The position numbers were made by a program, and so were the translations under genes. 64,000 nt of DNA from Candidatus Enterousia intestinigallinarum (lineage in GTDB: Bacteria; Pseudomonadota; Alphaproteobacteria; Rs-D84), in NCBI GenBank assembly GCA_944407095.1, contig OX097180.1:372001-436000 (forward strand). The letters are read 5' to 3'. Positions 1,444 to 59,766 of the stretch are shown piece by piece (positions within the stretch are counted from its first letter, which is position 1; the number at the start of each line of letters is the position of its first letter). The notes beneath the pieces were generated by a model. It was not told where the DNA came from, made no database searches, and saw only the letters and a program-made list of their open reading frames with translations.

Positions 1444-1848
1444 TCAATTTTCAAAACTGCCAAACATCCCCTGCTTGAAGTCAGCATTTGTAAAAGCCGT
1501 ACTACATTGTTTCGCACAGCCGTCAGAACACGTGCCATACGATGCCATTGTCCAATCAGATACAGCAGGCACCGTCATTTTACAAAAACAATACCTTCCA
1601 CTTTCAGAAATATTGACGGCTTCCTGTGTTTTTCCCGTTGTGGGTGGCATTGGTCCAGTACTTGAACATACAGCCACCCCAGATATTGGAACGCCACCAC
1701 ATCTGCCATTAAAATCTGTATTTGAACCCGAAGTCGCCGAAACTGTACAAGAAGAACTGGCAGTAAATGCTACACACTTTGTCACCGCATACGCTGGTGG
1801 GATTGATGCCGAACAGATTATGCCGGCGATGATTAAATGTTTTTTCAT
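1444..1848 (-). CDS. Cys-rich secreted protein behind leader RNA A
   Basis: A 134-residue protein from the ATG at 1848, chosen over an upstream ATG at 1887 because AGGAGG lies 6 bases before it and a signal peptide (MKKHLIIAGIICSASIPPAYA) follows directly. The mature part has ten cysteines. The C-terminal half contains YCFCKMTVPAVSDW and then a CSDGCAKQC cluster and a FGSFEN end. I recall this arrangement from secreted proteins of gut Alphaproteobacteria, but no function is known to me. An intrinsic terminator lies about 27 bases before the start codon, so expression probably depends on read-through of the leader RNA. Confidence 0.75.
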   Translation of the reverse strand: MKKHLIIAGIICSASIPPAYAVTKCVAFTASSSCTVSATSGSNTDFNGRCGGVPISGVAVCSSTGPMPPTTGKTQEAVNISESGRYCFCKMTVPAVSDWTMASYGTCSDGCAKQCSTAFTNADFKQGMFGSFEN

Positions 1849-1874: not shown

Positions 1875-2051
1875 AAAAAACCACCAAAATATTTCAGGTG
1901 GTTGGAGGTTAGTAGCTATTGTAATAATAGTGTTGTTTATTCGTGATATTCACAACCCTCCAACCTAAATTGTGGAGGCGATATTTTATGTCATCTCTGA
2001 CAATTACAAAGGGCTACTACACCCCGTCAATGGAACACCCACTGACGTTTG
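1875..2051 (-). ncRNA. Structured leader RNA A (riboswitch/attenuator candidate)
   Basis: Read on the minus strand from a predicted start near 2051. First comes a hairpin CGTCA/TGACG (2043-2047 with 2025-2029), then a GGGGTGTAGTAGCCC element (2025 down to 2011), then a small hairpin TGTCA/TGACA (1989-2002). A three-way junction follows: P1 GGTTGGAGG (1957-1965) pairs perfectly with CCTCCAACC (1900-1908) and encloses P2 (GTTGT/ACAAC) and P3 (CTATT/AATAG). The terminator stem ACCACC/GGTGGT (1902-1897 with 1885-1880, then six U) overlaps the 3' strand of P1 by three bases, so the two compete. An upstream CCTCC strand (1972-1976) could instead pair with the GGAGG of P1. Leader B has the same layout with compensating base changes. 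Confidence 0.6.
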
Positions 2052-25773: not shown

Positions 25774-27072
25774 TTAATCCCCCATTGCACGATTTAGCAT
25801 ATGTTTTGCCATTTCTGCATTTTTTGCGGCCATCAACCCACGCAGTCGCGTAACAAACTGATTATACCCCGGCATTGATTGCAGTTTATTACGCCACTGC
25901 ATATATTCATTGCTAAATTTATTTATCCAGTTATCAATTGTAACAGATACATTTTTGTTGTATTCGTCGATACTTTTCGCATCCAATTTATTATGCTGTG
26001 CCCAAAAATCAAAGTTTTCATTAAAATATTTATGAAAATCTAACGGCGCGACACCCGTTATATCTTTGACGAAATCGGTTGCCTGCACCGACGGTTTACG
26101 CTTATTTAATTCAGAACTGATATAGTTGTATAACTTGTCAAGATCGGACGATTGGTTAAACAAATTATCTTTGAAAAAAGATGTTATATCGGCATACGTC
26201 CATTCCAGTGCTGCCAGTACAGAATTAAAATGTCCCTTGTTACTTGCATTGCCGGACATTTTGTTTGCCAGTGCAGTTTTTGCGACCTGTTGCGCGACAT
26301 CCCCAGCATCACTTCTGGATGTTATTCTGCGATAGCCCATATCCCGTATTGTCTGGTCAACCGCCATATCACGTACGGTATTTGCCAATATCGCATTTTG
26401 TTCATCAATAAACATCCCGCGCAGAAACGCCGACTTGTCCCGTGCGCCGTCATACAGTTTCTGTGCTGTCGGCCCTGCAAACATCAGCGCCTGTTTAACT
26501 TCCCAATCTTTTATGTCACCGCGTTCCAATTTCATATATCTGTCACGAGCCATATACCCCATACGTGCAATAATTTGCTGTTTTTCAGAATCCGTAAAAC
26601 CGTCTATTTTATAAACGGTTTCATTTTTTTGAACATCAAACAATTTTCCATCTGGCACATCACCGGCACGCACAATATGCGCCGACGGCGGCAAAACCAA
26701 TCCTGTTTTTACATCCGGCGCGAAATAAGTATCCAGCAAACTAACCTCTATCGGATTTTCATTTTTGCCAACAACATCATTAAACGGCGCCAATATTACA
26801 ACAGACATATCGTTCCAATTACCACCGGAATTTGCATCTACAATATGATTCAACGTAGTATGCACCGTGGCGCGCGGAACATCGTAATTTGTCGCCATCG
26901 CAGTCGTTGGAATTGCCAAACTGCCGTCCGATAAGCGTCGTGGCATATACTTGGTTGCGTGCACCATAACCCAGTTATTCATATCAGACATATATTTTAC
27001 CTGGGCCTGAACGTTATCTTCAAAATCTTGTAATTTTTGAATACCGGACATAAAATCTTGTACTTCTGCCAT
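25774..27072 (-). CDS. Large conserved-looking protein of unknown function
   Basis: 432 residues, no signal peptide or membrane segment. The N-terminal third has a mixed fold with VHTTLNHIVDANSGGNWNDMSV-type sequence, then VVILAPFNDVV and VLPPSAHIVRAGDVP. The middle part (IARMGYMARDRYMKLERGDI, KSAFLRGMFIDEQNAILANTVRD) is helical, and the C-terminal 150 residues are helical and Trp/Asn-rich. I recall similar blocks from proteins of uncultured gut Alphaproteobacteria but know no function. It is monocistronic and lies beside the tRNA-Pro duplication. Confidence 0.65.
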   Translation of the reverse strand: MAEVQDFMSGIQKLQDFEDNVQAQVKYMSDMNNWVMVHATKYMPRRLSDGSLAIPTTAMATNYDVPRATVHTTLNHIVDANSGGNWNDMSVVILAPFNDVVGKNENPIEVSLLDTYFAPDVKTGLVLPPSAHIVRAGDVPDGKLFDVQKNETVYKIDGFTDSEKQQIIARMGYMARDRYMKLERGDIKDWEVKQALMFAGPTAQKLYDGARDKSAFLRGMFIDEQNAILANTVRDMAVDQTIRDMGYRRITSRSDAGDVAQQVAKTALANKMSGNASNKGHFNSVLAALEWTYADITSFFKDNLFNQSSDLDKLYNYISSELNKRKPSVQATDFVKDITGVAPLDFHKYFNENFDFWAQHNKLDAKSIDEYNKNVSVTIDNWINKFSNEYMQWRNKLQSMPGYNQFVTRLRGLMAAKNAEMAKHMLNRAMGD

Positions 27073-56838: not shown

Positions 56839-57402
56839 TCATTCTGAATAATAACACCGTCCAGACAGAATCCCGGAACCGGCCGTATCGGAAAATTCCC
56901 CCGCCTGCAAAAAGCACTGTGTTATGGAAACACTGTCCTGATCTGACCAGCCGCCGTCGGGGCAATCTTTGCAATAAATGCTATGGCCGGCCGAACCATA
57001 CGTTCCGGGCCAGCATACACAAAAAGAATATTGTTTGCACACACCGTCAAAATCGCCACTGCTTAAATCCGCATCCAGATTCAGCGCGTCTTCTGCAATA
57101 ATATCCATTATCATCCCCATATCACCACCGTCAAATCCCGTTTCACGGCATAACTGAATGGCGCGACTGACGCCGATCCCACTGGACAAATAGTCGCTTA
57201 TACATCCCATTATACTGACACACATATCACACGCCATAGATGAAGAAGATAAAAAACCACTTTTATATAATTGGCACGCAACACTATCAGCGTATCCACC
57301 GCTTCTACATATATGCTCTGTATTTGCGGAAATTGCAACGGCGCTTTGACATATAAAAAATACAAAATATCCAACAAAGCAAACCGATAAAATTTTTCCC
57401 AT
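56839..57402 (-). CDS. Cys-rich secreted protein behind leader RNA B
   Basis: 187 residues from ATG 57402. A GTG two codons upstream overlaps the GGGGGG site and is rejected. Signal peptide (MGKILSVCFVGYFVFFICQS + AVA). The mature part has about 15 Cys in a helical domain (ACDMCVSIMGCISDYLSSG) and then CVCWPGTYGSAG, CKDCPDG and SVSITQCFLQAG, ending GRCYYSE. The last 60 residues match the protein at 49694. Expression probably depends on read-through of the leader terminator, 20 bases upstream of the start. Confidence 0.75.
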   Translation of the reverse strand: MGKILSVCFVGYFVFFICQSAVAISANTEHICRSGGYADSVACQLYKSGFLSSSSMACDMCVSIMGCISDYLSSGIGVSRAIQLCRETGFDGGDMGMIMDIIAEDALNLDADLSSGDFDGVCKQYSFCVCWPGTYGSAGHSIYCKDCPDGGWSDQDSVSITQCFLQAGEFSDTAGSGILSGRCYYSE

Positions 57403-57422
57403 TTTCACCCCCCGACAACATT

Positions 57423-57629
57423 AAAAACCACCCAAAAAAATTCAGGTGGCCAGGAGGTTGATAACAATCTTACGAATTGCGTGGTGTATTTGGTATTTCA
57501 CCACCCTCCTGACCAAATTCAGCCAGGAGATTATTTATCGTCGTAATAAAAATGGCGCAACGCGCCCCGCTTTTCTATTCCGACGCGTAAGAGAGGTTAT
57601 CAAGCCCCATCACGACAACCCGTCGTGAC
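57423..57629 (-). ncRNA. Structured leader RNA B (riboswitch/attenuator candidate)
   Basis: From the predicted start near 57629: hairpin CACGAC/GTCGTG (57611-57627), then GGGGCTTGATAACCTC (57608 down to 57593), then a GGCGC/GCGCC hairpin with U-rich tail (57554-57566). Next is a local hairpin CTCCTG/CAGGAG, and a three-way junction closed by CAGGAGG (57505-57511) and CCTCCTG (57451-57457). It encloses GTGGTG/CACCAC and CAAT/ATTG hairpins. The terminator CCACC/GGTGG (57429-57449) follows at once with a U-run. Every stem is also present in leader A with different but complementary bases. Confidence 0.6.
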
Positions 57630-57635
57630 ATCAGT

Positions 57636-57664
57636 ATTGTAAACAAATCGTAATATAATGTAAA
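57636..57664 (-). promoter_or_regulatory. Predicted promoter of leader RNA B
   Basis: TTTACA (57659-57664), a 17-base spacer and TACAAT (57636-57641) on the minus strand. Confidence 0.6.
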
Positions 57665-59007: not shown

Positions 59008-59766
59008 CTATTTTCCCAAAACGCGTTCCAATTTGGCACGCAGTTTTTTCATATCGTCATATTTTGTAAATTTTCCCTTTTCGGCAATAGATATTTCACC
59101 ACTTTCTTCGGATACAACCAGCACGGTTGCACCGGATACTTCACTCATCCCCAAGGCCGCCCGATGACGCGTTCCATATTTCCAATTTAGATTATTTTTA
59201 GACAGCGGCAATATCGCCCCAGCATACGCAATGCGTCCACGTTCTATTATAACCGCACCATCGTGCAGTGGTGTTTTATTAAAGAATATAGTCAACAACA
59301 GTTCACTGGAAATCGTGGCATCAACTGCAACACCCGGTTTATCAATCGCGCTTTCATCCAAAGAACCAGTAAACACAATCAGCGCCCCTGTATGCTTGGC
59401 CGACATATATTCAACCGCAGACACTATTTCATCCAACGATTTTGTATCACGTGGACGCTGCACCCCTGCACGAAAAATGCGTCGCCATTCATCTATATTA
59501 CCCATCAGTGCCATAAATTTGCGCAATTCCGGTTGAAACACAACAACCAAACTGATAGACAAAAACAGCGCCGTCCAATGCAAAAATGTCCCCAATAAAT
59601 CCAAATGCGCCCAAGACAGCACGAAACTAAGCCCCCATAAAAGCGCCAATCCCAGCAACCCGCGCACTAATCTTTCCGATGAAGTGTTTTGTATAAAGCC
59701 ACGATAAAACACCCACAGTAAAACAACAATTATCAGAATCTGAATCAATCCAAGCCAACTAAACAC
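59008..59766 (-). CDS. cdaA: Membrane diadenylate cyclase (CdaA-type)
   Basis: 252 residues. Three N-terminal membrane helices (first near residues 6-20, LIQILIIVVLLWVF), then a DisA_N/DAC domain with LHDGAVIIERGRIAYAGAILPL and GTRHRAALGMSE, the DGA and RHR motifs needed to make c-di-AMP from two ATP. Length and topology match CdaA (DacA) of Firmicutes. The usual partner CdaR (YbbR) and GlmM are absent; an AsmA-like gene precedes it by six bases. c-di-AMP is uncommon in Alphaproteobacteria. Confidence 0.9.
   Translation of the reverse strand: MFSWLGLIQILIIVVLLWVFYRGFIQNTSSERLVRGLLGLALLWGLSFVLSWAHLDLLGTFLHWTALFLSISLVVVFQPELRKFMALMGNIDEWRRIFRAGVQRPRDTKSLDEIVSAVEYMSAKHTGALIVFTGSLDESAIDKPGVAVDATISSELLLTIFFNKTPLHDGAVIIERGRIAYAGAILPLSKNNLNWKYGTRHRAALGMSEVSGATVLVVSEESGEISIAEKGKFTKYDDMKKLRAKLERVLGK

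Follow-up and report, generated by a model that had tools for sequence, protein, structure and literature searches.

We analysed a stretch of 64,000 nucleotides from Candidatus Enterousia intestinigallinarum, which we call the window. On its minus strand, between dnaN and a gene for a Cys-rich secreted protein, lies a structured RNA that we refer to as leader B (57423..57633). It scores 181 bits (E 1.7e-48) with R1, a covariance model that we built from ten hand-collected copies, all of them from the Enterousia genome of the window; the E-values of our home-built covariance models are rough. The sequence upstream contains a -35 box TTTACA (57659..57664) and, after a spacer of 17 nt, a -10 box TACAAT (57636..57641) immediately before the 5' end of the RNA, and GATAACATA or TATAAT-like -10 boxes occupy the equivalent position in other copies. 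Downstream, a Shine-Dalgarno sequence GGGGGG (57408..57413) leads to the gene for a 187-aa protein with 15 Cys and an N-terminal signal sequence (56839..57402), whose ATG at 57402 is about 20 nt past the 3' end of the leader and for which there was no Pfam match. With RNAfold the leader B region folds at -93.6 kcal/mol, compared with -67.3 +/- 4.5 in shuffles (z -5.8). A second copy, leader A, lies at 1875..2048 on the same strand (R1: 159.5 bits, E 2.4e-42) and stands before a gene for a 134-aa secreted protein with 10 Cys (1444..1848). Adjoining dnaN at 59008-59766, also on the minus strand, is a gene for a c-di-AMP cyclase (DAC domain, CdaA-like), here in an alphaproteobacterium with a 1-Mb genome.

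All parts of leader B are on the minus strand and are given here from the 5' end. The RNA begins with a hairpin, H1 (57609..57631; 95.8% of cells paired, double changes in 7/8 pairs). It is followed by P0, a GGGG/CCTC hairpin (57593..57608) whose loop is the site of the P1 5' strand TTGATAAC (57596..57603), and by the P2 5' strand CTTACG (57586..57591). The P3 arm (CGTCGGAATA with TATTACGACG, 57539..57585) is optional and has a variable inner stem, and where present it is 95.1% paired. Next come strand a, CTCCTGGC (57522..57529), and strand b, GGTCAGGAGG (57505..57514). Two hairpins follow. P5 (57481..57505) pairs GTGGTG with CACCAC around an A-rich loop AAATACCAAATA, with 99.1% of cells paired and double changes in 5/5 pairs. 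P6 (57465..57479) pairs CAAT with ATTG, and one of its positions is UA 57 times and AU 54 times. The loop of P6 holds the P2 3' strand CGTAAG (57474-57469), and the P1 3' strand GTTATCAA (57458..57465) lies just beyond it. Strand c, CCTCCTGGCC (57448..57457), then runs into an intrinsic terminator hairpin, CCACC..GGGTGG, with a U tract (57423..57449), which is also predicted by folding. We found no conserved ORF, by eye, that could be a leader peptide.

Covariation was measured in A3, a covariance-model alignment of 116 copies, and it is very strong. In A3 92.5% of cells are paired, as opposed to 66.4% with partners shuffled, and there are double-sided changes in 42/46 pairs. The covariation score is 0.679 vs 0.197 in the shuffles (0/500), and the signal is lost when partners are slid by 1-3 columns. 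As A3 was itself fitted to the structure, we added tests that are not favoured by it. Both b:c and P6 are absent from the covariance model behind the alignment. In the 116 copies b:c has 96.6% of cells paired, 117 double changes and a covariation of 0.309 vs 0.106 shuffled (0/500), and P6 has 97% of cells paired (0/500 shuffles). We also compared the strands of each copy with strands swapped between copies, and a copy's own strands paired better for P1 (z 34.5), P2 (42.8), b:c (9.9), a:b (8.2) and the two arms of the terminator (7.3), while a control pairing of a with c had no copy-specificity (z -0.4). The same test gave no long-range partners for the H1 loop or the P5 loop (z 0.9 and -0.5). 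Compensated variants of P0, the hairpin that encloses the P1 5' strand, include GUAAGAU/AUCUUAU and UGGU/ACCA, and P0 is copy-specific in 40 distant loci (own vs swapped strands, 0/200 permutations). We also considered a T-box-like specifier logic and rejected it because the loops are constant.

The preliminary description of the window had proposed a closing stem and two hairpins for both leaders, and the pairs that it listed are all there. In leader B the closing stem CAGGAGG/CCTCCTG is b:c and the hairpins are P5 and P6; in leader A the pairs are TTGGAGG/CCTCCAA, GTTGT/ACAAC and CTATT/AATAG. It missed the 5' half, that is H1, P0, P1, P2, P3 and strand a. YTAYYAA, which it had taken for a conserved loop word, belongs to no loop: it is the 3' strand of P1, a variable long-range helix. 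Its inference of a selected RNA structure is strongly supported, as pairing was kept while sequence changed in about 30 copies of the same genome and in hundreds from relatives, and we saw no copies with conserved sequence and broken pairing, which it had named as the observation that would refute it.

The long-range helices P1 and P2 join the 5' half of the RNA to the 3' half. The P1 5' strand lies in the P0 loop and the P2 3' strand in the P6 loop, and these sequences are compatible with a reciprocal loop-tail pseudoknot made of P0, P1, P2 and P6. Whether the helices coexist or alternate is not decided by sequence. Pairings of 6-7 bp within a loop of 7-8 nt are compatible with a kissing-type geometry.

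The window genome (1,001,484 bp) has about 30 copies of the leader RNA. With blastn we find 9 of them within the genome, and R1 finds 24 at E < 1e-17 and six weaker ones that make up a second subfamily. One further copy with the same pseudoknot (343001-343092) is found by the model of Rfam family RF02221 (sRNA-Xcc1), to which the second subfamily is closer (49.2 bits, E 3.6e-8). The RNAs of the second subfamily are longer and lie at 790660, 217082, 840012, 448376, 5948, 124720 and 343001 of the genome's contig (L042-L047 and L241). All 34 of the 34 other genomes of the genus that we searched have matches, up to a maximum of about 40 per 0.8-1.0 Mb. In GTDB the matches are in Candidatus Enterousia and in gut Alphaproteobacteria of ruminants, deer, horses and chickens. 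Enterousia belongs to the order Rs-D84 and has reduced genomes (PMC12306168). Since the copies are related, their counts are not counts of independent events. There are also tandem arrays of two to three copies (L097 5565-6153, L137 4323-5371, L103 2940-3756 and L153 4314-4881), and in L097 and L153 each copy apparently has its own -10 box. Copies without a downstream gene are one in the window genome (489648-489824) and tandem copies in L097, L137 and L153.

Beyond the genus, R1 found the RNA in 18/289 genomes sampled evenly across the class; these are from 14 genera, of which 13 lie outside the genus of the window. After six distant sequences were added to the model (R2), there were matches in 28/385 alphaproteobacterial genomes from 23 genera, all of them at most 2.4 Mb in size. 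The full architecture, the A-rich internal loop of P5, the terminator and the downstream gene are conserved in loci from about ten families, where the genes are prepilin-like, lipoprotein, outer-membrane, membrane or HTH genes.

Rfam scans of the window and of the copies in its own genome found nothing, and the window copies do not match RF02221 even at E up to 5 (gathering score 53 bits). The link to sRNA-Xcc1 emerged only on scanning distant relatives, where RF02221 matches exactly over b:c, P5 and P6. One such locus (L186, G250 311259-311450) scores 56.2 bits, which is above the gathering score, and the other distant loci score 28-52 bits. R1 also matches L186 (E 1.8e-11), and thus the chain of homology between the RNA of the window and RF02221 has two significant links. 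Both share a three-way junction of a closing stem and two hairpins; b:c, P5 and P6 covary, and the alignment to the Rfam model puts its helices there. They also have a CCACC-type tail in common and, in most members, an A-rich internal loop in P5. The agreement in this loop is partial: the AAUA...AAUA of the RF02221 P5 internal loop (AAUACAAuA / GGGGAAuaau) is retained in most relatives, and in the window copy the loop is GAAATACCAAATA, without an inner CCC/GGG stem. The differences are that Rfam models only 87 nt, labelled as an sRNA gene, and that the window copies are far below its threshold.

To look for the 5' half in RF02221 members we used a descriptor. Our first version was too loose (shuffle background of about 1 per 5 kb), and we used instead a scored version made of the P6 hairpin with an upstream-pairing loop, the flanking P1 and b:c. 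Among loci found by the Rfam core alone, 17/19 have the upstream P1 and P2 strands, with descriptor scores of 72-95, and 0/570 shuffles reach 72. In Xanthomonas, sRNA-Xcc1 was described as an 88-nt sRNA mapped by RACE (PMC2996969); it has also been described as integron-encoded and upstream of symE (PMC12444791) and as tandemly repeated in Xylella (PMC12189769). Our limited literature search found no description of a 5' half, of a switch made of a, b, c and the terminator, or of a leader role for this family.

The P1/P2 architecture is also present in 7/7 phage and plasmid loci from Gammaproteobacteria and Desulfovibrio (descriptor scores 67-77.5; 1/420 shuffles reaches 68). H1 is missing from the phage members. 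These full-length relatives in temperate phages (L234-L238) are mostly directly before antirepressor or KilA-N genes: such a gene follows 4/5 phage copies examined, and the Moraxella gene is annotated as hypothetical. It is possible that the phage copies control prophage induction through RNA. The C4 antisense RNA of phages P1 and P7 is a known case of RNA control of phage antirepressor genes, and it constitutes an antisense RNA family of its own. Our Rfam scans, which covered loci other than those of the phages, reported no C4 match. A near relative of the Rac-phage copy is present in 158/5,426 E. coli genomes. Pattern scans of IMG/VR gave 0 matches.

Another family with a similar arrangement is that of the Bartonella Brt RNAs (Brt1-9), which are about 200 nt long, multicopy and located before small XRE HTH genes, resemble a terminator at the 3' end and are reported as genus-specific; a riboswitch-like nature has been hypothesised for them (PMC5387305). 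We found an RNA of this type before an HTH gene on five Bartonella plasmids. That it is Brt is inferred from position alone. The plasmid RNA has the P0/P1/P2/P6/b:c architecture and a:b, with compensatory changes in P1 and P2 across the five plasmids. Different plasmids have P2 as AAUUCUAG/CUAGAAUU, GUUCGAG/CUCGAAC, AAUUAUAG/CUAUAAUU or GUUUGG/CCAAAC, always with the 3' strand in the loop of a CUGA/UCAG hairpin, and b:c is UUCCGGGAG/CUCCCGGAA. On the 28-kb plasmid pBGR3, the best descriptor matches, one per strand, are the HTH-linked RNA and a second one, which lies ahead of a beta-solenoid protein. Descriptor scores of 67.5-73.5 are modest alone, as 3 matches in 1.13 Mb of shuffles reach 70, and the argument is carried by the compensatory changes and the position, not by these scores. 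P5 differs in that it lacks the AAUA motif, and there is no match at the sequence level: R2 did not match pBGR3, and blastn with the Bartonella RNA matched Bartonella plasmids only. The second RNA, of the same architecture, occurs on several Bartonella plasmids (L178 ~25890-26063 (-), L179, L180 and L182) upstream of the beta-solenoid (YdcK-like) protein, and scores 47-49 bits with RF02221, just under the threshold.

Returning to the 3' part of the leader, strand b has two alternative partners, a upstream and c downstream, and both pairings are copy-specific. The b:c helix is mostly 9-11 bp and overlaps the terminator 5' arm by a median of 4 nt, with an overlap of at least 3 nt in 106/113 copies. 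Because the rival pairings are copy-specific and b:c overlaps the terminator arm, we read b:c as an antiterminator and a:b as an anti-antiterminator. We also looked elsewhere in the RNA for an antiterminator that pairs directly with the arms of the terminator, and there was no copy-specific signal (z -1.9 and -1.7). The CUCC core of strand c is complementary to the Shine-Dalgarno sequence. A CAGGAG Shine-Dalgarno is present in 9/28 copies where c is CUCCUG and in 1/62 others (Fisher p 8e-5, not corrected for relatedness). The complementarity is only weakly copy-specific overall (6.39 vs 6.10 bp), and for this reason masking of the Shine-Dalgarno by c is only a possibility.

We consider it likely that leader B is a cis-acting, riboswitch-like attenuator RNA, and a full-length, divergent member of a superfamily whose 3' half is known as sRNA-Xcc1. 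In the mechanism that we propose, each element has its own promoter and intrinsic terminator, and its two halves would be locked by reciprocal loop-tail pairing, the P0 loop with the strand 3' of P6 (P1) and the P6 loop with the strand just 3' of P0 (P2). When b pairs with a (P4, presumed OFF), c would be free, the terminator would form, a short RNA would be released and the gene would be off; if polymerase read through in this state, c might mask the Shine-Dalgarno as well. When b pairs with c (presumed ON), the foot of the terminator would be occupied and the gene would be on. The choice between the two states would be made by a ligand or protein recognising the conserved A-rich P5 loop together with the P1/P2/P6 core. 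The structure, the two rival partners of b, the terminator, the position of the genes and the homology to RF02221 are shown by our data, while regulation itself, which way the switch works, whether there is a ligand and what the function is are inferred without expression, probing or ligand data. The short terminated transcript expected in the preliminary description is supported by the anatomy alone: the promoter is sigma-70-like, and the terminator hairpin covaries and is followed by a U tract.

The genes behind the RNA bear on this reading. Leaving out copies at contig ends, a start codon and a Shine-Dalgarno follow 94/109 copies, and the gap from RNA to start codon has a median of 27 nt (IQR 24-30). 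The earlier observation of a Cys-rich secreted gene downstream is right for both window leaders and only partly general across the family, as the genes that follow many copies encode small HTH regulators, outer-membrane proteins or something else. In the window genome the genes are those for Cys-rich secreted proteins, small HTH proteins (Pfam HTH_3/HTH_31) and an outer-membrane-like protein; XRE/HTH genes are directly downstream of copies L032, L033, L035, L039 and L040, and the gene after the second-subfamily copy L044 encodes a protein with matches to type IIG restriction-modification models.

One alternative is a dual-function RNA, as in the Brt1/Trp1 model, which would be an abundant trans-acting sRNA if terminated and a gene leader if read through. 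The arrangement matches that of Brt (PMC5387305), and both lone and gene-linked copies exist, but there is no direct target evidence here. This remains possible, although we are inclined to doubt it.

A second alternative is that the copies are only trans-acting sRNAs, the view put forward for sRNA-Xcc1 and Brt1. The short terminated RNA would then act on distant mRNAs, while the gene downstream would be incidental or simply co-transcribed. Every copy is flanked by a promoter and a terminator. There are lone copies and copies in tandem, several of which have a -10 box of their own, and the lack of a downstream gene in some cases leaves room for a trans role. Both RNAs have also been published as trans-acting (sRNA-Xcc1 as cited in PMC12444791, Brt1 in PMC5387305). 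However, the spacing of 24-30 nt to the start codon is tight in most copies, the downstream genes are diverse and unrelated, a, b, c and the terminator have the anatomy of competing strands, and the phage copies are 44-57 nt before antirepressor and other genes. We believe that this explanation is unlikely.

It has also to be considered that the leader is autoregulatory and binds a protein, with the downstream XRE/HTH product or another host protein setting the switch. Small HTH proteins are indeed behind many copies, but in the same genome the same RNA also precedes unrelated proteins, and therefore a single HTH product could serve all copies only by acting in trans; we regard this explanation as improbable. 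A DNA-level repeat (operator, recombination site or MITE) with inverted repeats that mimic RNA structure would account for a dispersed, multicopy sequence and for sRNA-Xcc1 being described as integron-encoded (PMC12444791), but it can practically be discarded, as it is contradicted by substitutions that come in pairs in the long-range, pseudoknotted helices of a single strand, by an orientation that is fixed relative to promoter, terminator and gene, and by ends that are not conserved.

The attenuator reading is our preferred one. As in known attenuation riboswitches, an aptamer-like conserved core is followed by anti-antiterminator, antiterminator and terminator strands. It differs from them in that the ligand is unknown, the double loop-tail pseudoknot is unusual, and no known riboswitch class (Rfam 15) was matched at the gathering score by the window, the copies in its genome or the distant loci. 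We tentatively suggest, while leaning slightly against it, that sRNA-Xcc1, Brt and the Enterousia leader belong to a single riboswitch-like class, so far unrecognised and built on a reciprocal loop-tail double pseudoknot, which would switch accessory genes (antirepressors, XRE regulators, surface proteins) of Proteobacteria and their phages on one common signal, the 88-nt 'sRNA' being a stable 3' fragment.

What has been catalogued as a family of small trans-acting RNAs appears to make up one half of a far longer leader RNA, whose switch anatomy stands before phage antirepressors, regulators and surface proteins across Proteobacteria, at a density of up to about 40 per megabase in one group of gut bacteria with reduced genomes. 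If ligand sensing is true, one signal would control prophage induction decisions, regulators of mobile genes and surface coats. From the full-length model one can derive exact mutations for testing, and it offers Rfam an improved search model. As a minor observation on the downstream genes, the window-genome copy at about 231337 (L031) precedes a 387-aa protein with a weak match to the PADLOC candidate defence family PDC-S11.
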